A DNA stretch of 36,725 bases from positions 1 through 36,725 of the IMG/VR virus record IMGVR_UViG_3300027734_000165; one strand, given 5' to 3'. A model generated the notes under the pieces. The model was given only the letters and a program-made list of their open reading frames with translations, did no database searches and had not been told where the DNA came from. The first letter of the stretch is position 1, and the number at the start of each line of letters is the position of its first letter. Both the position numbers and the translations under genes were made by a program. Below are positions 1-36,725 of this stretch, piece after piece. The stretch is from a virus.

Positions 1-156
1 ACCTTTTTTGAATTGTAGGTCTTTCTCATCAGAAATTACAGAGATATTATTCAAAGATACTATTATTTTGTCAATATCTTCTATCAAATCTTTCCACCCT
101 TGTTGAGACATCATCTCAAAACGAGCTTCGTAGTATTTTTGCAGTTCAGGAGTCAT
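1..156 (-). CDS. Partial small phage protein D, left-end copy (C-terminus off the edge)
   Basis: The start codon is at 156 on the minus strand and the frame stays open to base 1, so only the first 52 codons are present. The DNA matches the complete gene at 34885-35040 with two differences that I can find (near 100 and 144). The complete copy encodes 75 residues, highly charged and probably helical, ending in a repeated Leu/Glu pattern. Proteins like this occur beside head genes in podovirus-like phages, but I know no function. It follows gene A directly, stop against start. The truncation is a window-edge effect, not a mutation. Confidence 0.85.
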   Translation of the reverse strand, partial: MTPELQKYYEARFEMMSQQGWKDLIEDIDKIIVSLNNISVISDEKDLQFKKG

Positions 157-456
157 TTAAACTCCAATAGAGCCATTCATGTCAGCTTGGGACATTACCC
201 ATGCGTAACATTTAGCCAAGAAAGTTGCACCAGTTTGTGATTCAACTTCACTCAATGGGCAGTGGTATCTGCGGAATTCCACATCACGGGTGTCATCGTT
301 CTCAGGACGGGTTGCATAGCCAACAACATCTAGCATGACGCTATGACGACTGTCTGCATTGCGTGTGTAACTGATAGACGCAGTTGCTATGCGGAAGTAA
401 GCACCTGAGAATGGGATGCCGTATTGTGATTGTGTGAGGTCTAGTTGGATTGCCAT
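157..456 (-). CDS. Conserved small phage protein A, copy 1 (99 aa, function unknown)
   Basis: The 99-residue product begins MAIQLDL and contains the stretch YHCPLSEVE and a C-terminal FLAKCYAWVMSQ. It sits between fibre gene B and gene D in the late leftward block. I recognise it as a type of small protein common in uncultured tailed phages near fibre or head genes, without known role. A second copy lies at 35041-35340. The two differ at roughly one base in ten but at only about seven residues, so most changes are silent and both copies look selected. It has no signal peptide or membrane segment. A virion role is inference from position. Confidence 0.88.
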   Translation of the reverse strand: MAIQLDLTQSQYGIPFSGAYFRIATASISYTRNADSRHSVMLDVVGYATRPENDDTRDVEFRRYHCPLSEVESQTGATFLAKCYAWVMSQADMNGSIGV

Positions 457-471
457 GATATTTCCTTTAGG

Positions 472-1791
472 TTAAGCGTAATTTGTTTCTGTGGTTTGTA
501 TGGTAGCCACCCAACGGATATTGGTAGCGGCTGCTCCTGTGGCAGTTACTGCAAGTCCACCATTGGTTGTGTCTGCTGATAATGCTAATGTCCAAGCAGG
601 TACATTGCTAATAGCCGTGACAGTTGAAGCAACAAGTGTTGTTGTTCCTGCGTTTGCCTCTCTGCGAATCAAACCAGATACTTGCCAAGCGGCTGATGCT
701 GTTCCTCCAGATGCTTGTTGACGAGCAACAACTGTTCCTGTAAACGCATAAGCAGAATAATTAGCAAGAATAACTTGATTATTTGCATCTGCGGGTTGTA
801 AATCTGAAGTCAAAACAACAGCAATATTTGTTGTTGAGGCTTTTGCTAAAACATAAGTTGCAAATTGACAATCACCTTGTCCCGTAAATATAGTATATCC
901 ATAAGCATATTTACCTACAAGTTCAGCATTTGCATATGATCCAAGTGCTACTGCACCATTAATTGTGGCTTGACAACTATTGCCAATTGAAATTGTGTTA
1001 TTTGAAGTTGAAATTGGTGCTTGACCCAATGCAATTGAGTAACCACCTGAAGCCGTAGCTCTATACCCAATCGCTATTGCATGAGTGCTTCTTGCACCAT
1101 AGGTGCTTGTATTATTACCAATACCTGCCGCAAAAGAATTAGTACCAGAGGCATAAGAGCCTCCTAATGCCATAGCACCTGCACCTGTTACTGCTTGAGA
1201 GCCTGCATTTGCAGAGTTTCTTCCCAAAGCCATAGAGGCGGTAGAAGATGCGGTTGCCCCAACACCTATTGCAACAGAAGCACTACCACTTGCAGTTGAA
1301 CCACTCATTATTGCAATGGAATAATCTCCAGTAGCAATAGGTAATGCCGTTCCAACATCAAGGTTCTCAGCATAACCTCTCATGGTTTTTTTGTTGCCTG
1401 TTTCCCAGTTTGTACCATTACAAACAATTTGCATACCCTCACCACGCCTCAAAATGCGTGTTGTATATCCATCAATTGTTTCTGCGCCATTAGGATCAAT
1501 GGTAATAACATTTGTATTAGATGTAGAAGTATTCCAAATAACACAGTTAAAACCAGAACCCAATGTAGCGGCAGCAGTCAATGAAACAGTAAATGTGCCA
1601 CTTGTGCAGTTAATAATCTTACCCGCATCACCAGACACAACAGTGTAATTAGCAGTTTGGTTGCTAATTGTTAAAGTAGAACTACCACCACCGCCACCAA
1701 TGGCAGTACCATTTAAAAGCAGGCTAGTTCCATCACTACTTAAAACAACTGATGCGCCACTACCAGTATTGTTAATATTTACAGCACCCAT
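472..1791 (-). CDS. Fibre protein B with YadA-head-like repeats
   Basis: The 439-residue product has three parts. Residues about 1-135 form a beta-rich domain shared with gene C (motifs ITIDPNGAETIDG, RRGEG, KKTMRGYAEN). Residues about 150-290 are degenerate 14-residue repeats of the type S-x-AIG-x-x-ATASG, typical of trimeric autotransporter heads (Hep_Hag/YadA head). The C-terminal domain runs from about GQGDCQFA to WVATIQTTE. The likely role is a trimeric receptor-binding or tail-tip fibre. It lies 9 bases after paralogue C on the same strand. The right-end version of this locus lacks a separate B gene and instead joins a B-like C-terminus to C, so B looks gained or lost as a module. Confidence 0.85.
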   Translation of the reverse strand: MGAVNINNTGSGASVVLSSDGTSLLLNGTAIGGGGGSSTLTISNQTANYTVVSGDAGKIINCTSGTFTVSLTAAATLGSGFNCVIWNTSTSNTNVITIDPNGAETIDGYTTRILRRGEGMQIVCNGTNWETGNKKTMRGYAENLDVGTALPIATGDYSIAIMSGSTASGSASVAIGVGATASSTASMALGRNSANAGSQAVTGAGAMALGGSYASGTNSFAAGIGNNTSTYGARSTHAIAIGYRATASGGYSIALGQAPISTSNNTISIGNSCQATINGAVALGSYANAELVGKYAYGYTIFTGQGDCQFATYVLAKASTTNIAVVLTSDLQPADANNQVILANYSAYAFTGTVVARQQASGGTASAAWQVSGLIRREANAGTTTLVASTVTAISNVPAWTLALSADTTNGGLAVTATGAAATNIRWVATIQTTETNYA

Positions 1792-1800
1792 GATTTATCC

Positions 1801-3213
1801 TCAAGCATAAGTCACCTCAGAAGTTCGTATAGTAGCAACCCATTGAATGTTTACTGATGCAGCACCTGTAGCAGTCACCGCTAAACCTCCATTGGTTGTA
1901 TCAGCAGATAATGTTAAATCCCATGCTGAAGCACCCGCAGTTTTACTTAACACATTGATGTTAAAAGAGCCTAAAACAGTTGATGCGGCAGTTGCATCAC
2001 GCAAGATTGCACCTTTGATTTCCCAGGCGGCATAGTTACTTCCACCTGATGCTTGTTGTCTTGCAATGATTGTTCCGCTAAAAGCAAAGGCAGAATTGTT
2101 TGGCAGAATAACTTGATTTGTAGAACTAGCAGCAGCACCATCAGATGTTGCAACTACTGGTGTTGCAGAGGTTGTAGAGGCACGAAGGATAGTTACTCCA
2201 TATTGAGCATCACCTTGACCTGCAAAAAATCCACCAGCGTAATTATATTTGCCATAAACAGAAGAAACTGCTCCTGCTCCAAGAGCAACAGAATACCTAT
2301 AATCTGTTCTTGCTCCATCGCCAATAGCAATTGAACTTGCTCCACTAGCAGTAGGATTGGTAACGTAATAGTTATTTCCAATACAAACCGCACCTAAAGC
2401 ACTTGCAGTAGCTCCAGCACCTATTGCTAAAGTATTGGCGGCATTTGATGTTGATGTATCACCAATTGCAACAGCACTAGTTGCGCTTGCAGTTGCTCTT
2501 CGACCAAGTGCAATACTATTTGTACTTTTAGCCCCATAAGTACTTGTTCCGTTGGCTGCTACATGAACAGCAAACGAATCAGCTCCTGATGCGTAAGAAT
2601 TACCTAATGCTATTGCTCCTGCGCCTGTAGCAGTTGTTGCAGTGTATCCACCCGATCCACCACCTAAAGCTAATGAATAGTCAGAACCAGCGGTTGCAAC
2701 ATAACCGCCCGCCATTGCACCCGTACCAGAAGCAGTGCAAGTGTATCCAACAGCAATAGAGTCTTGACCTGATGCATTTGATGCCCCACCTACAGCAGTA
2801 CCACCACTTCCTGCGGCAGATGCTCTTGTATAACTAATAGGGATATTTTCTGCATATCCACGCATTGTCTTTTTATTACCTGTTTGCCAATTTGTGCCAT
2901 CACAGATAATTTGTGTTCCCTCACCCCTACGGAGAATTACAGTAGTTCTTCCATCAATTGTTTCAGCACCATTAGGGTCAATAGTTATTACATCCGTAGA
3001 AACTGTAGATGTATTCCAAATAAAACAATTGAAACCTCTGGTAAAACTACTAGCAGGCGCAATTGAAATAGTATAAACACCAGATGTAGAGTTAATAATA
3101 AAGTTGCTATCACTAGGCGTTACTATATATGCCGCAGTAATGTTCTTTATCTGCAAGTTTCCTAATGGTTGAACCGCATAGTTAAATGCGGCTAACTGGT
3201 TACTCGCACTCAT
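1801..3213 (-). CDS. Fibre protein C with YadA-head-like repeats
   Basis: The 470-residue paralogue of B begins MSASNQLAAFNYAVQ and has the same N-terminal beta domain (ITIDPNGAETIDGRTT). It then has an extended run of S-x-ALG/AIG repeats separated by TATG or TASG spacers, and a C-terminal domain ending WVATIRTSEVTYA. The repeats match the family pattern of YadA-type trimeric heads, which fold as left-handed parallel beta-rolls. The start overlaps the stop of the preceding gene by one base (TAATG). DNA from about 2204 to 3186 recurs identically at the right end of the window. The gene is probably a host-recognition fibre; the receptor cannot be read from sequence. Confidence 0.86.
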   Translation of the reverse strand: MSASNQLAAFNYAVQPLGNLQIKNITAAYIVTPSDSNFIINSTSGVYTISIAPASSFTRGFNCFIWNTSTVSTDVITIDPNGAETIDGRTTVILRRGEGTQIICDGTNWQTGNKKTMRGYAENIPISYTRASAAGSGGTAVGGASNASGQDSIAVGYTCTASGTGAMAGGYVATAGSDYSLALGGGSGGYTATTATGAGAIALGNSYASGADSFAVHVAANGTSTYGAKSTNSIALGRRATASATSAVAIGDTSTSNAANTLAIGAGATASALGAVCIGNNYYVTNPTASGASSIAIGDGARTDYRYSVALGAGAVSSVYGKYNYAGGFFAGQGDAQYGVTILRASTTSATPVVATSDGAAASSTNQVILPNNSAFAFSGTIIARQQASGGSNYAAWEIKGAILRDATAASTVLGSFNINVLSKTAGASAWDLTLSADTTNGGLAVTATGAASVNIQWVATIRTSEVTYA

Positions 3214-3695
3214 CAGTAATCTCCACCAACTGCTTGTACTGCAATGGCGATATTAGTGCCACCAGCCGCTACAGTTGTACCCGCATAAATACGATAACTA
3301 GCAGGTAAGTTAAGACCACCTGTAGGTACTGGCAAAGCATAAACTGTAAGTGCTGTTGTTCCAAGAGCAGTTACCGCAGTAGCAGGCAAGGCCACCTCAC
3401 CTAAAAAGATGTTGTTTCCCGCAGTAGTATTTGCTGATCCGTTGTTCATCCAAAAACGAACTACAGTTGCCGCTGATGTACCTGATGCCGTTGCACCATT
3501 GGTAGAACTAAAACGACAAGTAATCTGGTCAACACGAGAACCATTAGCCCCTGCCGTATAAACAAGTGCCATTGGTGTTCCAACTGCTTCAGTACCATCA
3601 AAGGCTTTGGTATTGGTCATTGCAGTACTAAGTACGGCATTCAATGCCCCTACATTAGGGGTTTGGGAAAATATAGGGGTTGCTGTTACTGGCAT
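3213..3695 (-). CDS. Small virion protein of the fibre module (160 aa)
   Basis: The product begins MPVTATPIFSQTPN and is rich in Ala, Thr, Gly and Val, with a central VYTAGANGSRVDQI segment typical of small beta-sandwich phage structural proteins. It has no membrane segment or catalytic motif. It lies between the Mtd_N-type fibre and fibre C, with a one-base overlap to C, so it is probably co-translated with the fibres. A role as fibre accessory, decoration or adhesin domain is inferred from composition and place. I know similar proteins in uncultured tailed phages but no experimentally assigned function. Confidence 0.8.
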   Translation of the reverse strand: MPVTATPIFSQTPNVGALNAVLSTAMTNTKAFDGTEAVGTPMALVYTAGANGSRVDQITCRFSSTNGATASGTSAATVVRFWMNNGSANTTAGNNIFLGEVALPATAVTALGTTALTVYALPVPTGGLNLPASYRIYAGTTVAAGGTNIAIAVQAVGGDY

Positions 3696-5026: not shown

Positions 5027-5511
5027 TAAATGCCTCCTGCATCAATTGGTGTTGTGCCACCATAGACGCTATTTGGAGCACCGCCATCAAGATTGGCAAA
5101 TGCTTCACCATTTACACCAGATACGCCAGCAGCGCCTTGTGGCCCACGCTCACCTTTTTCACCAACAACGTCACCAACATTGATAACTTTGCCATCAGAA
5201 AAGGTAACTATTAGTGAGCCATCAAAATCTATTTTGGTACTGACAATGGAGACACCATCTTCTCCATCTTTTCCATCAGAACCATCTTTTCCGTCTACGC
5301 CATCTTTACCATTTATGCCATCAGCACCACGCTCACCTTGTGAGCCTTGATCGCCTTTATCACCTTTTTCACCCTGTGGGCCTTGAAGTTTTTGAACTTC
5401 TTGAACATGAGTTTCAAGTTTTGGCAGCTTCTTATCAAGCAAAATAGCCAATGCAGACAACTTTGCATCAGTTGACGCATCTGATAGCAGTATCTGCTTA
5501 ATGTCCATCAT
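5026..5511 (-). CDS. Collagen-like virion protein (161 aa)
   Basis: A helical N-terminus of about 45 residues (MMDIKQILLSDASTDAKLSA, then a Lys/Glu/Gln-rich stretch) is followed by about 14 uninterrupted Gly-x-y triplets (GPQGEKGDKGDQG then repeated GKDG). A short beta segment (SIVSTKIDFDGSLIVTFSDG), a second Gly-x-y stretch (GEKGERGPQGAAG) and a C-terminal tail complete it. Collagen triplets in phage proteins form trimeric stalks. It overlaps the portal stop by four bases (ATGA) and the fibre start by one, so it probably contributes a trimeric spacer to the adhesion apparatus. Attachment to the downstream Mtd_N fibre is inference. Confidence 0.87.
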   Translation of the reverse strand: MMDIKQILLSDASTDAKLSALAILLDKKLPKLETHVQEVQKLQGPQGEKGDKGDQGSQGERGADGINGKDGVDGKDGSDGKDGEDGVSIVSTKIDFDGSLIVTFSDGKVINVGDVVGEKGERGPQGAAGVSGVNGEAFANLDGGAPNSVYGGTTPIDAGGI

Positions 5512-7526
5512 TGACCAATAATGCTTTTAAGGAACTCATTATCTGTTGTTTTTTGCTTATCACTCTTAGAGTTTTGCAATTCAACAACTTTTAACTTGTT
5601 TTCGATGTCTTTTTCTTTCAACATCAACTCAGCAATCTTGACTCGCTTATTGAACTCTTGCTCAGCAAGTAAATCGTTGTTTGGAAGGTTTTTAGTAGCC
5701 GCTGCCAGTGTCTTTGCTTGCAATTCTTGTGGCATTAACTGAACTTCAGTCATCAATTTAGCCGCTTCAGCACGATTTTGCTCTGCTTGGGTAGTCTGAA
5801 CAGCAATCTGAGCCTGTGCAGCTTGCAAAGCAAGTTGTTGTTGAGCTTGTTGGGCTTGTTGAGCCTGTGGATCAGGTTTAGCCATCTCATCCAACATCTG
5901 AATCAACTCATATCTGTTAGACAGTGATGAATTAGCCATGATTCCCTTCAGAATCACAGGCAAAACAGGTGTATTTGGGCCAAGAGTCTGCAACAAAGAG
6001 ATAAATTGCTGTTGTTCATGCTCTCTAGCGATAATTCCAAGTGCCGCAGTCGGAATAAACTTCATGTCAACAGTAGGATAACGCTCAGGGTCAAACTGCA
6101 TATAGCGATATGCTGCTTTACTGATAAACGGAATCATAAAGTCTTCTTGGAAGTTGACCAATGTACGCTTGTACTTCTTGATAATCGAGGCAACAGCCAT
6201 CGAAATACCGCCCTGACCTGCATCTCTAGACACAGCACTGACCATTCCTTGAGAATCTAGTGTTCCAGTAGCTTGAAGGAGCATTCTTTCAAACTCTTTG
6301 GCAGTTGACAGGTTAGAACCATCAGTATTACCAAACTTAAACGGGAACAGAATCTCATTTGGATTGCCGTTTGTCAGGATTGCCTTGCCTGGCTTAACCT
6401 CAAACTTAGCACCACGAGGCAGGCGTGTGGCATCCATAGCAATCATGGGGCTTGTTGTGAGCGCCAATGAGTCTAAGTGGCTACGAACTTGGGCATCAAT
6501 AGCCTTTTGTGAGTTGTAAGCCTTCTCAACAGTGCCACGACCCAACAAACGATTAGGAACTGTATCGTCTTGATAAGCCAGAATTGGCCTATCTTTCATC
6601 ATGTAAGGATTCTTTTCTGCTTTTAACAGAGTTCCATCGTTGGCAATGACGACAATAGCCTCAACCAGATCAGAATACTCATCTTGAACAGAGTCTTCAG
6701 GGAACAAGTCCTCTATCTCTTCTTCGTTTTCTAGTTGTTCAATGTACTCTCTAGGAACTAATCCGTAGTAAGTTAAAAGTTTTACTTTATCGTCTTCGTA
6801 TTGAGTAACTTCTTGGGTAGGCTCTAAGTCGCTATCCATAGAGTCAGTGCTGATCTCTACCTTGCGATAGATGCCATCTTCTTGACCTTTAACGATCTTG
6901 TGGATAGAGACATACTTCTCAATAGCCACACCCATGCAGTCCTCAATGGTTGTTCCATTAGGGTCAAACAAGAAGTTACGGGGGTTAACAGGAACAATCT
7001 TGACTGCGATTCGGTCTTGTTCTACAACTCCAATAGCCGCTTGACCAGTTTGACCAGGTATGGGTTGGGTAGAAGGAACATAGACCTTCTCTGTTTTGAC
7101 AACAATCTCACCGATTCCAGTACCATAGAGTTCAGCAAGAAGCTCAATCTGGTCAATAGACTTCCTGATCTTATCTACTTTGAAGTCTTCCATGAGTTGT
7201 GCTTTTAAAGCAGCAACATCTAAAGGATTGTTATTGACATCACGAATATCGTCTTGAATGTCAAAGAACTCACCCTGACCAAAGATAGCTTCCATGATCT
7301 CGGCATGGCGTGTTTCTACGGCTTGTTGGGTAGCGGGAGTAACGATTCTAGAACGCTCAGAATCACGGGTTTTGTCTTGGATGTCCCACTCACCATTGAA
7401 GATACGCTCATACTCTAGCCAATCAGATAGGTAGTTAGTATCTCGATAATCTCGCCAACGATCACAATGGTTAACCACAAAAGAGACTAACTCTTTATCT
7501 GAATCTGTCGGCTCTTGGAATTCCAT
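5508..7526 (-). CDS. Portal protein
   Basis: The 672-residue protein lies directly downstream of the large terminase (1 base between them), the usual place for a portal. The N-terminus carries a WRDYRDTNYLSDWLEYERIFNGEW region and ETRHAEIMEAIFG. The middle has the portal-type stretch IVPVNPRNFLFDPNGTT and a helical clip/stem region. The C-terminal 120 residues are a Gln/Ala-rich probable coiled coil (QQAQQAQQQLALQAAQAQ), as in the long barrel portals of podoviruses. Size and style resemble SU10/P22-type portals. It should form the dodecameric DNA channel of the procapsid, and function is assigned with good confidence. Confidence 0.88.
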   Translation of the reverse strand: MEFQEPTDSDKELVSFVVNHCDRWRDYRDTNYLSDWLEYERIFNGEWDIQDKTRDSERSRIVTPATQQAVETRHAEIMEAIFGQGEFFDIQDDIRDVNNNPLDVAALKAQLMEDFKVDKIRKSIDQIELLAELYGTGIGEIVVKTEKVYVPSTQPIPGQTGQAAIGVVEQDRIAVKIVPVNPRNFLFDPNGTTIEDCMGVAIEKYVSIHKIVKGQEDGIYRKVEISTDSMDSDLEPTQEVTQYEDDKVKLLTYYGLVPREYIEQLENEEEIEDLFPEDSVQDEYSDLVEAIVVIANDGTLLKAEKNPYMMKDRPILAYQDDTVPNRLLGRGTVEKAYNSQKAIDAQVRSHLDSLALTTSPMIAMDATRLPRGAKFEVKPGKAILTNGNPNEILFPFKFGNTDGSNLSTAKEFERMLLQATGTLDSQGMVSAVSRDAGQGGISMAVASIIKKYKRTLVNFQEDFMIPFISKAAYRYMQFDPERYPTVDMKFIPTAALGIIAREHEQQQFISLLQTLGPNTPVLPVILKGIMANSSLSNRYELIQMLDEMAKPDPQAQQAQQAQQQLALQAAQAQIAVQTTQAEQNRAEAAKLMTEVQLMPQELQAKTLAAATKNLPNNDLLAEQEFNKRVKIAELMLKEKDIENKLKVVELQNSKSDKQKTTDNEFLKSIIGQ

Positions 7527-14739: not shown

Positions 14740-14769
14740 TAGCCGTGTTTCAAAACATTGTATCAAACT

Positions 14770-14952: not shown

Positions 14953-14958
14953 ACGCAA

Positions 14959-14986
14959 ATAGTAGTGTTGTTTTTATGCAAGTCAA
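14959..14986 (-). promoter_or_regulatory. Candidate leftward sigma70-type promoter
   Basis: On the minus strand TTGACT (14986-14981) and TACTAT (14964-14959) are separated by 16 bases. The ATG at 14952 begins about six bases after the -10, so a transcript from here would be leaderless or nearly so. I see no equally good promoter for the rightward genes starting at 15082. Confidence 0.5.
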
Positions 14987-15081
14987 TTAGGGTTTGTACT
15001 AGTATGAAATGATAAAAACCTATGGCACATTATGGGTGTGGACAACAAAATCCACATTTCAATAAACAAATAGGAGTGAAT

Positions 15082-15270
15082 ATGAAGTCATTGTTTGAAC
15101 AGTACAAAGAGCATTTTGCTGAAATTATGTACTGCTGCTATTGCCTCGAACCAAAAGGTGAAAGCTGGAGTTGCTGCCAAGAAAACCATTTTGTTGAATT
15201 TCAAGATTTATATCCTGAAGATCAAAAATTTATCATTGAGTCAGAGTTAGATGAAAATCAAAGGAGTTAA
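15082..15270 (+). CDS. Small cysteine-rich protein (62 aa)
   Basis: The ATG at 15082 is chosen because TAGGAGTGAAT lies just before it; an in-frame ATG at 15022 lacks such a site. The product begins MKSLFEQYKEHFAEIMYCCY, then CLEPKGESWSCCQENHFVEF. Five cysteines in 17 residues followed by histidine suggest a small zinc knuckle. Similar small proteins occur in environmental phages, with no known function. It is the first gene of the rightward recombination block and stops two bases before the ERF gene. Confidence 0.75.
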   Translation: MKSLFEQYKEHFAEIMYCCYCLEPKGESWSCCQENHFVEFQDLYPEDQKFIIESELDENQRS

Positions 15271-15272
15271 TC

Positions 15273-15887: not shown

Positions 15888-16126
15888 TGGACAAGAAAGA
15901 TAACTCAGGCGTTTTGTTCAAAAACGACAAGAAAGAAACAGGAAATCATCCTGATTACAAAGGAAATATCACAGTAGGCGGTCAGGATTACTGGCTATCT
16001 GCTTGGATTAAAGAAGGTAAATCAGGCAAGTTCATGGGTTTAGCAGTATCGCCCAAAGAGGAATACAAAGCCAAGCCTTCAGAGCGTTCCAAGGCTACTA
16101 GCTTTGATGACGATGTGCCGTTTTGA
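15887..16126 (+). CDS. Small ssDNA-binding-type protein with SSB-like acidic tip (79 aa)
   Basis: The product has an N-terminal SGVLFKNDKKETGNHPDYKG segment, a GQDYWLSAWIKEGKSGKFMG middle and a C-terminus SFDDDVPF. The last six residues closely resemble the SSB protein-interaction tip (DDDIPF). The N-terminal pattern is common in small phage and bacterial proteins encoded beside recombination genes. Coupling to erf by TAATG supports a role on single-stranded DNA. The core is shorter than a full OB-fold SSB, so it could be a reduced OB-fold or an adaptor that uses the tip to recruit SSB-partner proteins. Confidence 0.75.
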   Translation: MDKKDNSGVLFKNDKKETGNHPDYKGNITVGGQDYWLSAWIKEGKSGKFMGLAVSPKEEYKAKPSERSKATSFDDDVPF

Positions 16127-16140
16127 GTTAATATAAACCC

Positions 16141-16202
16141 GAGAGGAGAGCTGTGCAATGGATTTTCCTAGCTTGCGTACAAACAGTTTTCCTCTCACCT
16201 AA
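16141..16202 (+). promoter_or_regulatory. Leader with imperfect hairpin and possible 14-codon leader peptide
   Basis: GAGAGGA (16141-16147) pairs with TCCTCTC (16190-16196), and inside it CTGT (16151-16154) pairs with ACAG (16184-16187). The same stretch holds a ribosome-site-like GAGGAGAG and a short frame from ATG 16158 to TAA 16202, 12 bases before the 16215 gene. It may be a structured leader controlling that gene; whether the peptide is made is unknown. Confidence 0.35.
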
Positions 16203-16214
16203 CAGGAGTCAATA

Positions 16215-16544
16215 ATGAATGATATTTTTAACAACATGAAGCAATCAATGGATAAATTCTTCGGTACTGAAGCATTTAAGTTGGTACGCAAAGAAGACCC
16301 TACAACGAGCCATCAAGCTGCCGTAGTAGTAGACACCTCCAAGCTCGAAAAAATGGTTTATGAGGCCATTAAGAGCCATCCAGACGGGTGTATCTCAGAT
16401 GAAATCCTTGATAAGTTTCAAAAATACCCATATTCCTCAATAACCGCAAGATACAAGGCTTTGCTAGACAAGGACTTGATTGAAATTACGGGTGTCAAAC
16501 GTGGCAAATTTGGCAGAAATCAAAGGATTATGAAAGCCAAATAA
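16215..16544 (+). CDS. Winged-helix DNA-binding-type protein (109 aa)
   Basis: The N-terminal helix (MNDIFNNMKQSMDKFFG) is followed by KEDPTTSHQAA and a winged-helix-like region: LEKMVYEAIKSHPDGCISDE, SSITARYKALLDKDLIE and a basic GVKRGKFGRNQRIMKAK tail. The order helix-turn-recognition helix-wing fits small phage regulators with this PTTSHQAA entry motif. The start has ACAGGAGTCAATA immediately upstream. The next gene starts at the final base of its stop (TAATG). DNA binding is inference from fold pattern; it may act in replication rather than transcription. Confidence 0.75.
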   Translation: MNDIFNNMKQSMDKFFGTEAFKLVRKEDPTTSHQAAVVVDTSKLEKMVYEAIKSHPDGCISDEILDKFQKYPYSSITARYKALLDKDLIEITGVKRGKFGRNQRIMKAK

Positions 16545-16726
16545 TGTTAGAAAAACCACCATATTCAAAAATAAGTTATCCCTCTGTGCCAACAAAAGAC
16601 TTTAAATGGTCTTCAGGATCAGATGTCCAAGCAATCTGGAAAAAGCATGGATGGATTGCTCCAAGCGAAAAGATGACTCCACCACCGCCTGAGAAAGCTA
16701 TTCAGCCATTAAGGAGAGTCAGATGA
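16544..16726 (+). CDS. Small proline-rich protein (60 aa)
   Basis: The product begins MLEKPPYSKISYPSVPTKDF, then SDVQAIWKKHGWIAPSEKM and a PPPPEKAI segment. The VQAIWKKHGWxPPSE pattern is familiar from small phage proteins of unknown function. One-base overlap with the gene upstream and four-base overlap (ATGA) with the next make it part of a coupled chain. It has no cysteines or membrane segment. Confidence 0.7.
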   Translation: MLEKPPYSKISYPSVPTKDFKWSSGSDVQAIWKKHGWIAPSEKMTPPPPEKAIQPLRRVR

Positions 16727-16902
16727 TGCCTCAAATTGATCTAGGCGGTAATCCACCAGCCAACAGGTTTAAGTTCTGTGCTAAATGTGAAACCATGAAG
16801 CCTCCAGAAGGAGGAATTGACATGGGTTCTAAGTGGAACTGTCAATCTTGTTGGACAAAGCGAATTACTTTGAAGAATCTTAATACGAAAGGAAAGAAAT
16901 GA
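16723..16902 (+). CDS. Four-cysteine zinc-ribbon protein (59 aa)
   Basis: The gene begins with the ATGA overlap at 16723 and its own stop at 16900-16902 overlaps the next ATG at 16899, so both ends are coupled. The product begins MMPQIDLGGNPPANRFKF and has FCAKC (Cys19, Cys22) and WNCQSCW (Cys40, Cys43), a standard CxxC-x17-CxxC zinc ribbon, followed by a basic tail (TKRITLKNLNTKGKK). It may bind DNA or RNA or bridge proteins. The function is not known. Confidence 0.78.
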   Translation: MMPQIDLGGNPPANRFKFCAKCETMKPPEGGIDMGSKWNCQSCWTKRITLKNLNTKGKK

Positions 16903-17204
16903 GTTACGCAGCCGTTGAGATGAAAATCATACAGTGGTCAGAGCAAAGAAAAATTATCCCCAATAGCACACCAGAAGTTCAGCTTCTAAAGGCAATATCA
17001 GAGATGGGAGAACTAGCAGATGCGACCATTAAAAATGACCAAGAGGCTATTGTGGATGCTGTTGGTGATGTCATGGTCTGTCTTATTAACTACTGCGCTT
17101 TGCAGAACATCAATCTGGTAGACTGTATGGAAGTTGCATACGATCAGATCAAGAATCGCAAGGGGACATTGTTGCCCAATGGTGTGTTTCGCAAAGACAC
17201 CTGA
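16899..17204 (+). CDS. MazG-like nucleotide pyrophosphohydrolase
   Basis: The 101-residue all-helical product has the MazG-type metal motif: KAISEMGELADA (31-42, with Glu35 and Glu38) and IVDAVGDVMVCLINY (51-65, with Asp53 and Asp57). The YDQIKNRKGTLLPNGVFRKD end is typical of the phage members. The family hydrolyses nucleoside triphosphates to monophosphates; in phages it is proposed to trim nucleotide pools or ppGpp. Length fits the single-domain type. It is last but one in the rightward block and coupled to the zinc-ribbon gene. Substrate is unknown. Confidence 0.85.
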   Translation: MSYAAVEMKIIQWSEQRKIIPNSTPEVQLLKAISEMGELADATIKNDQEAIVDAVGDVMVCLINYCALQNINLVDCMEVAYDQIKNRKGTLLPNGVFRKDT

Positions 17205-17261
17205 CTGACATAAAAACCATCTAGCATTTCATTGCAACATTCCGTTGTTTAAGGAGAAATC

Positions 17262-17480
17262 ATGAAATTTGAAATGGATATTGGTTTTAGCGAGCATGAG
17301 AAAATTACAGTCGAGACATGGGACTTTGACAAAATTCAAATCATCCAAGACTTTATTGCTTTTCAAGAAGAACACGGCTGGGCGGTTGAATATGAAGCAG
17401 TTGAGCCACTTGATTTTGAAGATGAAACAGAAGAAGAAGAAGTCCCAGCTTTTGCTTTAGACGCTCACGAGCCTTTGTAA
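17262..17480 (+). CDS. Small acidic protein (72 aa)
   Basis: AAGGAGAAATC before ATG 17262 is a strong ribosome site. The product begins MKFEMDIGFSEHEKITVETW and is very acidic toward the end (DFEDETEEEEVPAFALD). Acidic small proteins in phages include DNA mimics and host-enzyme inhibitors, but nothing here identifies a target. It is the last rightward gene, 57 bases after the MazG-like gene, and is followed by a terminator-like hairpin. Confidence 0.75.
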   Translation: MKFEMDIGFSEHEKITVETWDFDKIQIIQDFIAFQEEHGWAVEYEAVEPLDFEDETEEEEVPAFALDAHEPL

Positions 17481-17481
17481 A

Positions 17482-17625
17482 CTACTTTGCCAAAAGATAA
17501 AGCCCCACGTTGCTAAAACTGTACCCTGCGTACACGATAGCCATGTAGGGGTTTTCTTTTATAAGCTGTTCACCAGCTATATAGGCATATATTGCCCCTG
17601 TGAGAATAATTAGCCAGGCACTCAA
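17482..17625 (-). CDS. Small two-helix membrane protein (47 aa)
   Basis: This frame starts at TTG 17625, which overlaps the TGA of the metallophosphoesterase gene by four bases (TTGA), and ends at TAG 17482. The product has two hydrophobic segments, AWLIILTGAIYAYIAG and YMAIVYAGYSFSNVGLYLLA, joined by a polar EQLIKENP loop. I recognise a similar pattern from small phage membrane proteins. The unusual start and lack of a clear ribosome site lower confidence, but composition is distinctive. It could be holin-like or a late membrane accessory. Confidence 0.55.
   Translation of the reverse strand: MSAWLIILTGAIYAYIAGEQLIKENPYMAIVYAGYSFSNVGLYLLAK
17499..17560 (+). terminator. Probable rightward terminator with long branched stem-loop
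   Basis: AAAGCCCC (17499-17506) pairs with GGGGTTTT (17548-17555), followed by TTTTCTTTT. The loop contains its own hairpin, GTAC-CCTGC-GTAC (17521-17533). It would end transcription of the rightward block at the point where the leftward late block also ends. It lies inside the coding sequence of the opposed 47-residue gene. Confidence 0.45.
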
Positions 17626-18614
17626 AATGCACTCACATCTATGACTTGACCACGGAACTCTACATGGTCTTCACTAAATTTATGGACGAGTTCAGGCCAT
17701 AAAAGCTGACCATTGAAGAAGTTTAACACCGCAAATCCTGATCTGTGGTTAGAAGGATTTAATTCTGCATAAGTAAATTGTGGGCCATCTGGTTCAGCAA
17801 GTGTTCCTGTATCCACACCATATCTAACCCCGTTGTAATCAGAAAATGGCGTGACTTTTAAACTATGCAGATGTCCAGTAACTACTGACACACCAGCGTT
17901 GACTGTATTGTTGTGAGTAGCGTGAATACCACCCTTGTATCGGTGCTTAATAATAACTTTATCTGTAGGCCATACTGCCCAACAGAACTCCCAATCTAGG
18001 ATGTGGTCTGTGAGCTTAAATCCTTGTACTTCCTTAAATTGGGGTGCGTGTTGAGCTAAACGATTGCCAAACCGAATGTCGTGATTACCCCATGTAAACA
18101 GTAGCTTTACATTGTGTCTCACTGCTTTGGCTACTTCTTCAATCTCACCCAACGCACCTTGCGTAGCTTTGAGTTCTTGGATAACAGAAGTCTGAGGCTG
18201 ATCTGTAATGTCATGGCGAGATATAGACGCACCATCAAAAGCATCCCCGTTACATATCACCGCCTTTGGTTTAAACTGTTCTATAGCCCATAGAAGCCCT
18301 TTAAAGGCTGTAGATCGTTGATTAGGTATGAAGTGGGCATCAGAGAAGACCAGTACGCATCCATTCTCTATGCCTAAATTTACTTGCTTTAATGGAGAAA
18401 AAGATTTTGGTTTTGTAATGTCATATTTAGCACCACGGAAGTCTGAAGCAGGTAATTTGACCTCATGGGTTTCTTCCATACTACGTCTGCGGTAGTTAAC
18501 TGCTCTCTCAGTAATACCTAGAATCTTGGCTACTTTTGTAACAGACTGATGTTTGTCCCACAAGGCCATAAACTGCTCATCTGTACAAGAATTAAGACCA
18601 TTAGTCGATACCAT
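17622..18614 (-). CDS. HTH-metallophosphoesterase fusion
   Basis: The 330-residue product has a helix-turn-helix at about 24-44 (SVTKVAKILGITERAVNYRR) and a calcineurin-like phosphoesterase domain: SDAH (91-94), NGDAFDG (122-128), GNHD (176-179), GGIH near 228-231 and GHLH (247-250). All metal-ligand motifs are intact. Family members hydrolyse phosphodiesters or phosphomonoesters; the HTH suggests it acts on or is guided by DNA. AAGGATTCTC before ATG 18614 supports the start, which overlaps the metalloprotease gene by 14 bases. Similar proteins occur in other phages; substrate is unknown. Confidence 0.85.
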   Translation of the reverse strand: MVSTNGLNSCTDEQFMALWDKHQSVTKVAKILGITERAVNYRRRSMEETHEVKLPASDFRGAKYDITKPKSFSPLKQVNLGIENGCVLVFSDAHFIPNQRSTAFKGLLWAIEQFKPKAVICNGDAFDGASISRHDITDQPQTSVIQELKATQGALGEIEEVAKAVRHNVKLLFTWGNHDIRFGNRLAQHAPQFKEVQGFKLTDHILDWEFCWAVWPTDKVIIKHRYKGGIHATHNNTVNAGVSVVTGHLHSLKVTPFSDYNGVRYGVDTGTLAEPDGPQFTYAELNPSNHRSGFAVLNFFNGQLLWPELVHKFSEDHVEFRGQVIDVSAF

Positions 18615-18975
18615 GAGAATCCTTAGTCAACAAGTTTTCCAATAGATTGATAACCCTATGCTCTTGCATCTCGATGTCCTCATCAGAAGACTTAGGGTCT
18701 GTTGCTACTGTCATCAAATCATGGAGAAATACATGGAGTAGCTCATGTAATGCGGTCTTATTAAGAGACTCTGGTGTTATCTTTTCTGAACCAAAATCCC
18801 CTAATCTGTAGGTAGCAAGTCTTGCAGCATCGTTAAACTCAACAGATGCCATCGCATTCTTTGCAGCTTTAGAACCTTTTTCAATACGCCAATCACCAAG
18901 ACTCAACACTTGTTGCCACTTTCTGACACTTTGTGCAAAGAATGCGGCATCATGGGGTGTAGGAATGTTAGGCAT
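18601..18975 (-). CDS. HELLH zinc metalloprotease-like protein (124 aa)
   Basis: The zincin motif TALHELLHVFLHD has HELLH at residues 77-81, followed after about 20 residues by an acidic helix (EMQEHRVINLLENLL) that could provide the third ligand. The N-terminal half is a WRIEKGSKAA-type segment seen in small phage metalloprotease-like proteins. Such small zincins resemble SprT or ImmA-type domains in size. It lies between the lysozyme and the HTH-phosphoesterase. It could act on a virion protein, a host protein or cell-wall peptides. No signal peptide is visible. Confidence 0.75.
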   Translation of the reverse strand: MPNIPTPHDAAFFAQSVRKWQQVLSLGDWRIEKGSKAAKNAMASVEFNDAARLATYRLGDFGSEKITPESLNKTALHELLHVFLHDLMTVATDPKSSDEDIEMQEHRVINLLENLLTKDSHGID

Positions 18976-19005
18976 TTCAACACCTTACAAAAAGTTTATG
19001 ACAGT

Positions 19006-19449
19006 TTAATTTAACAACAAACACTCAGCTTGTCGTCTTTTGAGCAGACCAGGCAAGACTTTGCCACCACCCTTAGTCCATAACATCAGTTGTTCTTGAG
19101 CCTGTTCCCATTCTTGAGCATTGATTTTTCGCTTCAAAGTTGAAGTCTGCAAACGACCGATTCCAAGGTTGTAAACAAAGTCAACAATGGCATTACATTT
19201 TTTTTCATCCGTTGCAAGAATCGGACAGTTTCTAAGAACACCTGGCAAATATGTATGCTCCAACTCAATCATTAGTAGGTGATTAGCCTCTTCCTGAGTC
19301 ATTGGAGGGTCTTCTAAGGTCACTTTACGCTTGTCAGCATAGTAAGTAGACCCATAGCCTATCGTAGCTACGTTAGCAGGGCAAAGGTAGGGCTTAGAAC
19401 GAAAGCCCTCGAACCTTTTACATAATTCTGCTGCCAACTCTAAGTTCAT
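19006..19449 (-). CDS. Endolysin, GH24 lysozyme
   Basis: The 147-residue product has the T4/P22-type lysozyme core: FEGFRSKPYLCPANVATIGY, then LEHTYLPGVLR and AIVDFVYNLG, ending with GLLKRRQAECLLL. The catalytic glutamate is Glu14 and the threonine is Thr29. The position usually held by aspartate is Cys23, giving the Glu-8-Cys-5-Thr spacing known in several phage lysozymes. It cleaves peptidoglycan. There is no signal or SAR segment, so a holin is needed. It overlaps the 3TM holin-like gene by four bases. Confidence 0.92.
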   Translation of the reverse strand: MNLELAAELCKRFEGFRSKPYLCPANVATIGYGSTYYADKRKVTLEDPPMTQEEANHLLMIELEHTYLPGVLRNCPILATDEKKCNAIVDFVYNLGIGRLQTSTLKRKINAQEWEQAQEQLMLWTKGGGKVLPGLLKRRQAECLLLN

Positions 19450-19940
19450 AGCCCACGCTTAGACAAAGTGCGATCAAGAAACCAGTAATTTATTGTTCCT
19501 GATAGCAATGCAGAAAAGTCTGGTGTCATCATTGTCTTAAATACTTCAGTAGCTGGCGCACCCGCTAACCAAGCATTCCATGCAAACCAAACATGGATAA
19601 ATGACCATACAAACAAAACCCAATAAGTGACCACAGGACGCACAGAAGCAGAAAGTGAGGCCACCCATCCACCTGCGGCTTTAACCATCGTTGCTTGCTG
19701 TTCTATGGCTGATTGAAAGGCATTCATCACACCGACATCAACTGCCGCTTCTCTTTGAGCGCCAATCTCAGCTAACTTTTGTTGACCACGTTGAGCTTCC
19801 AAGTCGCATTGAAACTTAAACATATTAAGTTCATGCTCACGCTCATTCTTCTTATCCATCCATTTAAGAACTTCAGGGGCTAATCGAAATACGCCACCAA
19901 AGATAGAACCTAACAAACCACCACTAAGAATATCAAGCAT
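19446..19940 (-). CDS. Putative holin-type membrane protein (164 aa)
   Basis: The ATG at 19940 (MLDILSGGLLGSIFGG) has AAGGGATGTAAAA upstream and is preferred to an earlier start that would extend further into the previous gene. An N-terminal glycine-rich helix is followed by a long charged helical region (KNEREHELNMFKFQCDLEAQ), then hydrophobic segments around SVRPVVTYWVLFVWSFIHVW and a C-terminal amphipathic segment. The layout resembles the three-segment holin family associated with gene-transfer-agent release. Position directly before the lysozyme supports a lysis role. Confidence 0.7.
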   Translation of the reverse strand: MLDILSGGLLGSIFGGVFRLAPEVLKWMDKKNEREHELNMFKFQCDLEAQRGQQKLAEIGAQREAAVDVGVMNAFQSAIEQQATMVKAAGGWVASLSASVRPVVTYWVLFVWSFIHVWFAWNAWLAGAPATEVFKTMMTPDFSALLSGTINYWFLDRTLSKRGL

Positions 19941-20178
19941 TTTTACATCCCTTTTTTTCGTCATCATGCGACAGTTTCACACCTGCCAACAAGCCAATAA
20001 AGCCACCAATAATGGTTTGAAATGCAGGGCTTATCAGTTTAAAGATTTCAGCGTTATCAACTTCTTTTGCCCACAACCCCAAAACAAAAGCACCAACAAA
20101 AGCCATCACTGATATGCACAAAGTAAAACTAACCATAAAGGTTACATAAAATGTAAGTTTTCCCTTTAAATCTTCCAT
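19933..20178 (-). CDS. Holin-like two-helix membrane protein (81 aa)
   Basis: The product has a charged start (MEDLKGKLTFY), a long hydrophobic segment (VTFMVSFTLCISVMAFVGAF), a short polar loop and a second hydrophobic segment (AFQTIIGGFIGLLAGVKL), ending with a charged tail (SHDDEKKGCKNA). Size, two membrane helices and the charged tail fit a class II holin. It overlaps the larger membrane protein by eight bases, so the pair may act as holin and antiholin or holin and accessory. Which one is the holin cannot be told from sequence. Confidence 0.7.
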   Translation of the reverse strand: MEDLKGKLTFYVTFMVSFTLCISVMAFVGAFVLGLWAKEVDNAEIFKLISPAFQTIIGGFIGLLAGVKLSHDDEKKGCKNA

Positions 20179-32786: not shown

Positions 32787-33776
32787 TCAAGAAGGTACAA
32801 CCAAGGCAAACATGGAAGAAGAAGTAGCTGCACCAGTAGTAGCAGCGTTTCTCAAAGCGGCAACACCATACAAAGTGTCAGATGTAAACAAAGTAGCAAG
32901 GTACTCTTGCTTGTACTGAACTTGTGAACGGATACCAACTTGCTCAACCAGAACCATAGATTCCTTGTGACCCATCAAGCAGACACGACCAATAGAAGTT
33001 CCGCTTGCTGGGTAAGCAGCAGTTGCAGAAGCATGGTCAGCATTGCTAGAAGTGAACACGGGAATACCATAAAGGTTACCGATTTCACCATTGCGGATAG
33101 CGTTGCCATCACCCACAAAAGCCTGCTCAGTGTAACGGGCAAGACCCATCAATGTGTTACGGCTTGAAGGAGGAATGATGAAGAAGCGACCATCCATAGG
33201 AGTGTCGTTGTCATCCAAACGCTGAATAGTACGACGAATAGCCGCATCAGTCAGAGCAGAGGCGTTACCAGCGCTTGAGTTAGCACTGTAGTCAAAGGCT
33301 GTTGTGCCATCACCACCGATGAAACCACCAGTGTAACGTGCGCTATCGGCAGTACCACCATTGGCAGAACGACCCAACTGAATCAAGTCTGTATCGACTT
33401 GTTTAGCCAAGGCATAACCTGCGTCAGATGTGTAGAAGTTACGCATAGAGTTCAGGGCTTGAACTTCTGCAATATCTTCAATCAAACGGCTATATTCATA
33501 GTGCTTGTTGATAGATACTTGAACTTCAGATGCTGTATCTACGATGAGGGTAACTGCATCAGTTTTGCTCTTCAAAGATGCGTTGCCACGACCAGGGGCT
33601 GGAATGTGAACTGTGTCACCTTTCTTGCCCTTGAAGTTCATCTTCATAACCAAGTTCGCTAGAACAAGGTTCTTTTTGTAACTAGCAATAATTTCATCAC
33701 TCCAGATTTCTGGAATGAAGTTAGCTGCGGACGTTACTGTGGTTGCATTATTAGGTGCGAATGCTGTATTAGCCAT
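32787..33776 (-). CDS. Major capsid protein
   Basis: The 329-residue product begins MANTAFAPNNATTVTSAANF, then IPEIWSDEIIASYKKNLVLA and the coat-type stretch GKKGDTVHIPAPGRGNASLK. It continues through RLIEDIAEVQALNSMRNF, a PMDGRFFIIPPSSRNTLMG segment and GNLYGIPVFTSSN, all typical of HK97-fold coat proteins of podovirus and siphovirus type. It follows the scaffold, and a terminator follows it. GGAGATTTAATC is a strong ribosome site, as expected for the most abundant protein. Confidence 0.92.
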   Translation of the reverse strand: MANTAFAPNNATTVTSAANFIPEIWSDEIIASYKKNLVLANLVMKMNFKGKKGDTVHIPAPGRGNASLKSKTDAVTLIVDTASEVQVSINKHYEYSRLIEDIAEVQALNSMRNFYTSDAGYALAKQVDTDLIQLGRSANGGTADSARYTGGFIGGDGTTAFDYSANSSAGNASALTDAAIRRTIQRLDDNDTPMDGRFFIIPPSSRNTLMGLARYTEQAFVGDGNAIRNGEIGNLYGIPVFTSSNADHASATAAYPASGTSIGRVCLMGHKESMVLVEQVGIRSQVQYKQEYLATLFTSDTLYGVAALRNAATTGAATSSSMFALVVPS

Positions 33777-33800
33777 GATTAAATCTCCAATAAATTAAGT

Positions 33801-34544
33801 TTACTTAACTCTACCCTCTTGATACGCTTGCATGATTTCATCAGAAAGCGCCTCATAGCGGTTAGGGTCTTGCATTTTTAGCCGAATAAGGTCTGCCCTA
33901 CGATAAACCCGTTTTGAGGATTCACCAGAACCACCTACATCTACTCCAACTGCTTTCAAATTCTGCTTGCGAGTGGCTTCTCCAGCATCACTCACTTGCT
34001 TCTGTTTGACAGATCGAAGTTCTTTGTAAGTCGTTAGCAGTTCATTGGCAGAATCATAATCGAAATCAGCATCAGCACGTTTAAACAGATCAATTCGTAC
34101 AGGGCTAGATTTAACCCAGTTTGTAAAGTCCTCATTTTTAGCAATATCGCCAAAATCAGGATGTTCTTGTGCTAACTTTTGCTGAATTTGCGCCCTTTTC
34201 ATTTCGAGAGTCGCTTGGCGAGCCGCAATAATGTCAGGGTGACTATCAACTGTCCTTTGGACTGCCTTCTGAGGATTCTCAAAGAAATCTACTTCAGGCT
34301 CTACTTCTCTAGTTTGCTGTTGTCTAGAACTTAGGTTCTGCTTGATAAGTTCATCGGCTAACTTTCTAACTTCGCCAACCTCTTGTGCTTGCTTTCCAAT
34401 GAGCTTTTCAGCCTCTTGGTGCATTCTCACAATGTCATCTAAACTTTTATCCCTGTATTTTTCAGGGAGTTCAGCCTTCTGCGAAATCTTCTGTTCTTCG
34501 ATTTCTAACTCACCAAACTCTTCTTTTTCATTGTCAACTAACAT
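33801..34544 (-). CDS. Scaffolding protein
   Basis: The 247-residue product is highly charged and helical, with Glu/Lys/Gln-rich coiled coils (MHQEAEKLIGKQAQEVGEVR, NPQKAVQRTVDSHPD) and a basic C-terminal part (SKRVYRRADLIRLKMQDPNR) that fits a coat-binding helix. Position directly before the major capsid gene, 24 bases apart, is the standard scaffold position. AAAGGAAAAAGT is the ribosome site. No protease signature is seen, so it is probably a release-type scaffold. Confidence 0.87.
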   Translation of the reverse strand: MLVDNEKEEFGELEIEEQKISQKAELPEKYRDKSLDDIVRMHQEAEKLIGKQAQEVGEVRKLADELIKQNLSSRQQQTREVEPEVDFFENPQKAVQRTVDSHPDIIAARQATLEMKRAQIQQKLAQEHPDFGDIAKNEDFTNWVKSSPVRIDLFKRADADFDYDSANELLTTYKELRSVKQKQVSDAGEATRKQNLKAVGVDVGGSGESSKRVYRRADLIRLKMQDPNRYEALSDEIMQAYQEGRVK

Positions 34545-34601
34545 ACTTTTTCCTTTTTCCTGCCGTTATCGGTTGTAGGAGATTCAACTCGGCATAATTG
34601 C

Positions 34602-34829
34602 TTATGAGTTGAGTTTCTGCTCAGATTTCAACTTGTCAGTATGACTTTTCCCAAATTTGGCATGAGCCGTTGGGAAAGAACCAGACCATCCTTCAAGTTT
34701 AAAAGCTGGAGCAGAGAGAGTGCGGTTAGCCAAAGCGCCACACTCACACTTTAAGTTCGTTGCCTCATAAACAACAAACTTTTCCGTTTTGTGTCCGTTT
34801 TCACAGACGTAATCATAAAATCTCTTCAT
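34602..34829 (-). CDS. Small zinc-ribbon phage protein (75 aa)
   Basis: The product begins MKRFYDYVCENGHKTEKFVV and has a C/H pair (Cys9, His13) and CECG (Cys28, Cys30), an FmdB-type zinc ribbon. It is followed by the conserved stretch LSAPAFKLEGWSGSFPTAHA and a Lys-rich tail. Proteins of this type lie just before scaffold genes in many environmental podoviruses; role unknown. It overlaps gene D by 17 bases and is 57 bases before the scaffold. Confidence 0.8.
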   Translation of the reverse strand: MKRFYDYVCENGHKTEKFVVYEATNLKCECGALANRTLSAPAFKLEGWSGSFPTAHAKFGKSHTDKLKSEQKLNS

Positions 34830-35040
34830 ACGCCCTCTCGCTGATCTCTTTAAGATTTCTCAGCCAAGTTAATATAGAAAGTTCACCTTTTTTGAATTGT
34901 AGGTCTTTCTCATCAGAAATTACAGAGATATTATTCAAAGATACTATTATTTTGTCAATATCTTCTATCAAATCTTTCCACCCCTGTTGAGACATCATCT
35001 CAAAACGAGCTTCGTAGTATTTTTGCAATTCAGGAGTCAT
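34813..35040 (-). CDS. Small helical phage protein D, complete copy (75 aa)
   Basis: The product begins MTPELQKYYEARFEMMSQQG, then WKDLIEDIDKIIVSLNNISV and a KKGELSILTWLRNLKEIS segment ending ERAYEEIL. It is helical and charged; a frequent small gene between portal and head genes in podovirus-like genomes. A truncated second copy lies at 1-156 and is nearly identical. The 3' end overlaps the zinc-ribbon gene. Function is not known. Confidence 0.85.
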   Translation of the reverse strand: MTPELQKYYEARFEMMSQQGWKDLIEDIDKIIVSLNNISVISDEKDLQFKKGELSILTWLRNLKEISERAYEEIL

Positions 35041-35340
35041 TTAAACCCCAATCGAACCATTCATGTCAGCTTGGGACATTACCCATGCGTAACATTTAGC
35101 CAAGAAAGTTGCACCAGTTTGTGATTCAACTTCACTCAATGGGCAATGGTATCTACGAAATTCCACATCACGAGTGTCATCATTCTCAGGGCGTTTTGCA
35201 TAACCAACAACATCTAACATGACGCTATGACGACTGTCTGAATTGCGGGTGTAACTGATAGATGCAGTTGCAATGCGAAAGTAAGCACCCGCAAATGGAA
35301 CGCCATATTGAGATGTTGATAAATCAAGTTGTATCGCCAT
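35041..35340 (-). CDS. Conserved small phage protein A, copy 2 (99 aa)
   Basis: The ATG at 35340 is the true start, as in copy 1; a longer frame to 35391 would run into the fibre gene. Differences from copy 1 include STSQYG for TQSQYG, VPFA for IPFS, NSDS for NADS and YAKR for YATR; most other changes are silent. This shows both alleles are under selection. It follows the chimeric fibre gene by eight bases and abuts gene D. Confidence 0.87.
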   Translation of the reverse strand: MAIQLDLSTSQYGVPFAGAYFRIATASISYTRNSDSRHSVMLDVVGYAKRPENDDTRDVEFRRYHCPLSEVESQTGATFLAKCYAWVMSQADMNGSIGV

Positions 35341-35348
35341 AATAATCC

Positions 35349-36725
35349 TTATGCGTATGTTGTTTCTATTGTTTGAATGGTAGCAACCCATTGGATATTT
35401 GTAGCCGCTGCACCAGTAGCAGTTACCGTAAGTCCACCATTAGTTGTATCAGCAGTTAATGCTAATGTCCAAAGAGGAGTGTTAATAATTGCAGTTACCA
35501 TTGAAAAAACAAGAGTTGTACTTGCTGCATTTGCCTCTCTGCGGATTAAGCCTTCAACTTTCCATGCGGCTGATGCTGTTCCACCCGATGCTTGTTGACG
35601 AGCTACAACTGTTCCAGTAAATGCAAATGCTGAACTATTTGGCAAAATAACTTGATTTGTAGAACTAGCAGCAGCTCCATCTGAAGTTGCAACTACTGAT
35701 GTTGCAGAAGTTGTTGAGGCTCTTAAATTTGTTATTCCATACTGAGCATCACCTTGACCTGCAAAAAATCCACCAGCGTAATTATATTTGCCATAAACAG
35801 AAGAAACTGCTCCTGCTCCAAGAGCAACAGAATACCTATAATCTGTTCTTGCTCCATCGCCAATAGCAATTGAACTTGCTCCACTAGCAGTAGGATTGGT
35901 AACGTAATAGTTATTTCCAATACAAACCGCACCTAAAGCACTTGCAGTAGCTCCAGCACCTATTGCTAAAGTATTGGCGGCATTTGATGTTGATGTATCA
36001 CCAATTGCAACAGCACTAGTTGCGCTTGCAGTTGCTCTTCGACCAAGTGCAATACTATTTGTACTTTTAGCCCCATAAGTACTTGTTCCGTTGGCTGCTA
36101 CATGAACAGCAAACGAATCAGCTCCTGATGCGTAAGAATTACCTAATGCTATTGCTCCTGCGCCTGTAGCAGTTGTTGCAGTGTATCCACCCGATCCACC
36201 ACCTAAAGCTAATGAATAGTCAGAACCAGCGGTTGCAACATAACCGCCCGCCATTGCACCCGTACCAGAAGCAGTGCAAGTGTATCCAACAGCAATAGAG
36301 TCTTGACCTGATGCATTTGATGCCCCACCTACAGCAGTACCACCACTTCCTGCGGCAGATGCTCTTGTATAACTAATAGGGATATTTTCTGCATATCCAC
36401 GCATTGTCTTTTTATTACCTGTTTGCCAATTTGTGCCATCACAGATAATTTGTGTTCCCTCACCCCTACGGAGAATTACAGTAGTTCTTCCATCAATTGT
36501 TTCAGCACCATTAGGGTCAATAGTTATTACATCCGTAGAAACTGTAGATGTATTCCAAATAAAACAATTGAAACCTCTGGTAAAACTACTAGCAGGCGCA
36601 ATTGAAATAGTATAAACACCAGATGTAGAGTTAATAATAAAGTTGCTATCACTAGGCGTTACTATATATGCCGCAGTAATGTTCTTTATCTGCAAGTTTC
36701 CTAATGGTTGAACCGCATAGTTAAA
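35349..36725 (-). CDS. Chimeric fibre gene (C N-terminus, B-like C-terminus), partial at right edge
   Basis: The frame is open through the right edge; by comparison with C, about 10 N-terminal codons are missing. From 35743 to 36725 the DNA is identical to 2204-3186 of gene C. From about 35742 down to the stop it is different. It first resembles C (NLRASTTSATSVVATSDGAA), then switches near AFAFTGTVVARQQ to a B-like end (GGTASAAWKVEGLIRREANA to WVATIQTIETTYA). It has the same YadA-head-like repeats and fibre role as C. It is a recombinant or an allele, not a simple copy. Confidence 0.85.
   Translation of the reverse strand, partial: FNYAVQPLGNLQIKNITAAYIVTPSDSNFIINSTSGVYTISIAPASSFTRGFNCFIWNTSTVSTDVITIDPNGAETIDGRTTVILRRGEGTQIICDGTNWQTGNKKTMRGYAENIPISYTRASAAGSGGTAVGGASNASGQDSIAVGYTCTASGTGAMAGGYVATAGSDYSLALGGGSGGYTATTATGAGAIALGNSYASGADSFAVHVAANGTSTYGAKSTNSIALGRRATASATSAVAIGDTSTSNAANTLAIGAGATASALGAVCIGNNYYVTNPTASGASSIAIGDGARTDYRYSVALGAGAVSSVYGKYNYAGGFFAGQGDAQYGITNLRASTTSATSVVATSDGAAASSTNQVILPNSSAFAFTGTVVARQQASGGTASAAWKVEGLIRREANAASTTLVFSMVTAIINTPLWTLALTADTTNGGLTVTATGAAATNIQWVATIQTIETTYA

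Follow-up and report, generated by a model that had tools for sequence, protein, structure and literature searches.

The window, which is the whole 36,725-nt virus contig IMGVR_UViG_3300027734_000165 of IMG/VR, is in our estimate (a probability of about 0.85) a merge of two near-identical freshwater phages, whose fibre loci, here named alleles X and Y, are swappable versions of one site carried by different phages of a single population. X and Y look like real two-fibre and one-fibre forms of a fibre cassette. Variation of this kind is known among phages, where it takes the form of metaviromic islands; the less expected part of the finding is the rule by which the fibres are arranged in arrays, together with a family of small proteins, “A,” encoded directly after the last fibre.

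Comparison of the window with itself by blastn showed, as the original prediction had stated, that the right end repeats the left end in direct orientation: 34885–35657 resembles 1–780 at 86% identity, and 35579–36725 resembles 2040–3186 at 97.3%. The two copies begin with an exactly shared stretch of 99 nt, which ends in a mismatch at base 100, and close with an exactly shared stretch of 983 nt. Between these lie the differing blocks, 2,104 nt with two fibres in X and 759 nt with one fibre in Y, as expected from the predicted count of two fibre reading frames on the left and one on the right; the X copy is the longer by 1,345 nt. The chance of 99 identical bases standing beside sequence of 86% identity is about 3e-7. 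Both ends of the contig lie in the middle of genes, the left one (base 1) in a 75-aa gene and the right one (base 36725) in that of a fibre.

The clearest view of how these ends belong together comes from a second contig, L004 (IMG/VR 3300027733_000686, 7,523 nt; its sample may be that of the window or a sister one, and its pipeline a similar one), which is letter-identical to positions 32975–36725 and then directly to 3187–6958, with 0 mismatches over 7,523 nt. Since L004 reads from 36725 straight into 3187, allele Y stands there alone, between single-copy core genes of the capsid side and of the portal side. A search for an independent contig with allele X found none. The join in L004 and the left overlap of exactly 99 nt favour the merging of two strains, one of the two readings that the original prediction had put forward: the overlap is k-mer-like in length and, taking k as 99, fits a branch node of a de Bruijn graph. 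With 7,523 nt shared exactly by L004 and the window while the X and Y blocks differ at one site, the locus has the character of a strain-variable host-recognition island. A short-read assembler would have entered through the fibre block of strain X, made one round of the shared core, left through the block of strain Y and ended with a short second pass of shared sequence after it. The phage would be a podovirus-like one from fresh water, with a P22/SU10-type portal and a circular map, and the window would hold its genome once, at unit length, plus the second strain's version of the locus; the shared core in the contig could be that of X, that of Y or a consensus. Circularity, which the original prediction had raised as a possibility, is supported for Y by the join in L004 and for X only indirectly, through the shared 99-mer. 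Closed into rings, the two-fibre form would measure 34,884 nt, matching the predicted unit of about 34.9 kb, which does not hold for the one-fibre form at 33,539 nt. The contig stops at 3186/3187, 983 nt past the point where the alleles merge again, and this stop may mark a further branch of the graph, perhaps a third strain.

One might suppose that allele X is itself chimeric, its two-fibre array being an assembly error among strains that in reality all have one fibre, as the contig already mixes strains and no other contig with X was found. We consider this improbable: F1 and F2 are joined by a 9-nt spacer, at which a class II end leads into an array-type N-terminus just as in L051, L115, L288, L320 and others, and no repeat of at least 99 nt lies at the join, so a graph with k = 99 would need reads across it. 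Very unlikely, too, is the other reading of the original prediction, namely that a single phage genome truly holds X and Y together, whether as a tandem or with one at each end of a linear molecule. Both modules do lie on one contig, and the 68-kb contig of a relative also has two genome-like copies, but in L004 position 36725 is followed by 3187, with Y flanked by single-copy core genes, close relatives have one module at the site, and the mid-gene ends and the exact 99-nt overlap would be left without explanation. Least probable is a linear, packaged genome with genuine terminal redundancy whose two ends have since drifted apart, for although the ends are similar and in direct orientation, phage terminal repeats are remade at each replication and hence identical, whereas here a copy 1,345 nt longer than the other, an identity of 86% over 1–780, the exact 99-nt overlap, ends in mid-gene and the continuation of L004 through the right end speak against any direct terminal repeat.

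Two other sources of fibre variation were considered. In Mu and its relatives, fibre switching works through inversion of DNA; no inversion was seen at this locus, and an invertible switch of the Gin/Cin type was rejected, the alleles being in direct orientation and the inverted repeats only weak (19–22 nt, 75–84% complementary). For a diversity-generating retroelement, no reverse transcriptase was found among the open reading frames scanned with Pfam, which were part of the total; the gene of the fibre with an Mtd_N domain lies outside the block that varies between X and Y.

The locus occupies a defined place in the gene order of the minus strand. Terminase, portal (SU10/P22-like), a collagen-like protein, the Mtd_N fibre and a 160-aa protein come upstream of one or more fibres with YadA-head repeats, which are followed by gene A, two 75-aa genes, a 247-aa protein that by its position would be the scaffold, and the major head protein. 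In about 28 relatives (portal identity 87–91%; e.g., L191, L203, L207, L232, L239 and L244) the portal directly abuts the 75-aa gene, and in about as many others 3–10 kb lie between the two. As the site is thus empty in some relatives and filled in others, the fibre locus can be described as a cassette at a fixed site between portal and 75-aa gene. The same order recurs in L005, L006, L014, L015 and L020, where a single fibre separates the 160-aa gene from A. Compared with L006, the fibres of X are only 49–51% identical, against 88% for the terminase, 81% for the portal, 94% for the 160-aa protein and 94–96% for A. Positions 1–20000 of the window had no near match in the INPHARED phage collection.

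Table 1. Features of the two contig ends, the fibre cassette and its flanks (window coordinates).
Feature	Position	Strand	Remark
99 nt identical to 34885–34983	1..99	.	left contig end; read as a branch node, presumed k = 99
Differing block of allele X, 2,104 nt	100..2203	-	part of 75-aa gene, gene A, fibre F2, 3' end of F1
Gene A of X, 99 aa	157..456	-	no family match; probable fibre partner
Fibre F2 of X, 439 aa	472..1791	-	YadA-head repeats, array-type N-terminus, class I C-terminal domain
Fibre F1 of X, 470 aa	1801..3213	-	YadA-head repeats, class II C-terminal domain
983 nt identical to 35743–36725	2204..3186	-	body of fibre F1
Conserved 160-aa protein	3213..3695	-	upstream of fibres, core flank
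Fibre protein with Mtd_N domain, 442 aa	3698..5026	-	
Collagen-like tail protein, 161 aa	5026..5511	-	
Portal protein, SU10/P22-like	5508..7526	-	portal-side cassette border
ERF-superfamily annealing protein, 204 aa	15273..15887	+	possible exchange agent
75-aa gene	34813..35040	-	capsid-side cassette border; holds left edge of X/Y difference
99 nt identical to 1–99	34885..34983	.	exact match
Differing block of allele Y, 759 nt	34984..35742	-	part of 75-aa gene, gene A, fibre C-terminal domain
Gene A of Y	35041..35391	-	116 aa from first ATG; 99 aa from relatives' shared start at 35340
Fibre of Y	35349..36725	-	5' end cut by contig end; F1 body with class I C-terminal domain
983 nt identical to 2204–3186	35743..36725	-	in L004, base 36725 is followed by 3187

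The fibre of Y is whole in L004 (3746–5149, 467 aa). Its N-terminus and body are those of F1, identical over the 983 nt, and its C-terminal region turns F2-like, by a switch that is not clean: from 35743 to about 35640 the sequence is still F1-like at 80–85%, and only then becomes F2-like. The earlier claim that A and the fibre C-termini have diverged between the two ends needs refining for the right-hand fibre, which is not simply diverged but combines the body of F1 with a C-terminal domain of the F2 group. The predicted model of the C-terminal domain (pLDDT 88.6) resembles the C-terminal regions of phage tailspikes and fibres, with matches to 6c72 (Foldseek E 3.7e-4, Z 9.4), 7xy1 (Z 8.9) and T4 gp9 (Z 7.9).

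The C-terminal domains fall into classes that correspond to their position relative to A. A quickly built tree, in which many forks are open, was drawn from 129 such domains of the window and of related loci. One group in it holds 75 domains, all but two of which (73/75) are directly followed by A, and the label “adjacent to A” changes 6 times on the tree against 39 in shuffles; seven A-adjacent ends outside the main A-adjacent group are exceptions. Within this group the Y end and the F2 end are each other's sisters, and the F1 end sits among 22 domains that form another group and never adjoin A. Sorting by a motif that was picked after seeing the data placed A no more than 40 nt away from 73 of 75 “GLIRR” ends and from 0 of the 25 class II ends; as the loci were fetched by fibre, A and core queries, all such counts describe a non-random sample. 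Arrays of two to four fibre ends are found in L272, L278, L279, L287 and others, and wherever an array reaches A it is the last copy that adjoins it. Behind an upstream end, a fibre starting MG..N/E..xTGSG...LSSDGT.LLL begins 2–15 nt later, as F2 does, and the start of F2 matches the starts of second and later fibres in other arrays. The comparison shows a rule with few exceptions: arrays consist of one to four fibres, of which the last has a class I end and lies next to A, while those upstream have ends of other classes. Both X (F1, F2, A) and Y (F1 body, F2-type end, A) obey it. On the basis of the array-type junctions and the last-copy-next-to-A pattern in relatives, X is best read as having the anatomy of a natural array, and Y as an array reduced to one member in which the A-matched end was kept.

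Protein A, which represents an undescribed family, gave no match in Pfam or NCBIfam, no clear match in PHROG and none in the INPHARED phage collection. A structure model predicts mostly beta structure and short helices for it, and searches for similar folds returned no clear hit (best Foldseek E 0.5, best Z 3.7). Relatives of A occur in 55 viral contigs; among bacterial genomes, matches were found in only two MAG contigs. When 11 A-bearing records were tested, eight lacked a match to the portal of this phage and seven of those eight a match to its head protein as well, which, allowing that records may be fragments, places the pair of fibre end and A in different phage lineages. Fibre ends of another class, marked by ..IKRGAN.., are followed by proteins of 87–91 aa remotely related to A (hhalign probability 96%; PHROG 18037, of unknown function), and in L132 such a pair (9141–9826) lies directly upstream of a class I fibre and its A. 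This suggests that several families of fibre ends and partners exist. In L206, L342, L343, L344, L347 and L350, as in L132, the PHROG 18037 protein that directly follows an end of another class has 87–89 aa.

Gene A is small, lies immediately 3' of the fibre and stays with one class of C-terminal domain. This recalls phage Mu with S/U and lambda with Stf/Tfa, where the gene after the fibre encodes a partner matched to the fibre's C-terminus; A differs from these in that no sequence match to them was found in Pfam. By analogy with the modules of Alteromonas phages A5 and V22, the best-supported reading is that fibre end and A form a cognate pair, and A is probably a fibre chaperone or a tip cap. 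As far as the available text on A5 and V22 goes (PMC10579305), the likeness is that of a small gene directly after the fibre, the pair being common to distantly related phages. The chaperones there have 195–240 aa, with a helical body and a beta-hairpin, in contrast with the 99 aa and mainly beta prediction of A, and array copy number and end classes are features of the present locus that this portion of the source does not describe for A5 and V22. A wider proposal, to which we would give somewhat less than even odds, is that A is a widespread, undescribed family of fibre-tip partners of about 99 aa recognising one class of C-terminal domain, that several lineages build arrays of one to four fibres of which only the last has the matched end, that such arrays are expanded and collapsed by recombination at that end, and that the window catches one population in both states.

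The borders of the difference between X and Y bear on how one form may turn into the other. On the right, the difference ends at 35742/35743, where the conserved C-terminal domain has its upstream edge; on the left, its border (34983/34984) lies within the 75-aa gene. The simplest route would be an exchange of sequence, either homologous or homeologous, at the C-terminal domain that the fibres share. It would move the class I end and A as one block and so drop or add a fibre; Y would then be an array collapsed by recombination at this domain, although the direction of change is our supposition. As the Y block is about 14% different from the X block, the donor or ancestor of Y must be sought in another strain, not in this X. 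The ERF-superfamily protein may assist the exchange, Rad52-like phage recombinases including Erf being linked with recombination of diverged sequences in the available text of PMC3945230. The idea that recombination is rebuilding the host-recognition module, part of the original prediction, would fit the sharp edges of the difference and the mosaic make-up of the fibre. Such a difference may affect host range.

In aquatic phages, metaviromic islands (Mizuno et al. 2014, PMC3909814) are host-recognition blocks in which co-occurring, near-identical phages differ; tail fibres are among the most frequent variable genes, and one example is a YadA-type fibre. Those islands were found by poor read recruitment, whereas here two alleles can be compared base by base in one contig, and here the number of fibres differs as well. 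In the accessible parts of the work on MetaCarvel (PMC6710874) and STRONG (PMC8311964), strain bubbles in assembly graphs are described as shared core paths around a divergent block, from which a contig may emerge that mixes strains; here the circular map puts the alleles at opposite ends of the contig, where they look like terminal repeats. The window is a cautionary case, in that a strain-merged circular phage may mimic diverged terminal repeats or duplicated host-range modules, and at the same time it offers a single-base view of fibre-locus differences between co-occurring phages. The rule linking fibre end and partner would allow arrays and fibre–partner matches to be predicted in metagenomes, and such predictions could be tested by expression.

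Finally, some observations concern the wider genome and its relatives. The 68-kb contig of a relative mentioned above (IMGVR_UViG_3300043446_000617, 68,218 nt, with loci L243 and L244) carries the terminase twice, 34,084 nt apart, in copies about 91% alike over 9 kb, and may be another two-strain merge of a genome of similar size. The terminase of the window (7528–8787, minus strand) had no match above 60% in INPHARED, and IMG/VR gave 600 or more matched stretches, with 85–96% identity for the best, as for an abundant lineage without a close sequenced isolate in the former collection. A Mom-family DNA-modification protein (Pfam PF25680), encoded at 13132–13941 of the window on the minus strand, may protect the phage DNA.
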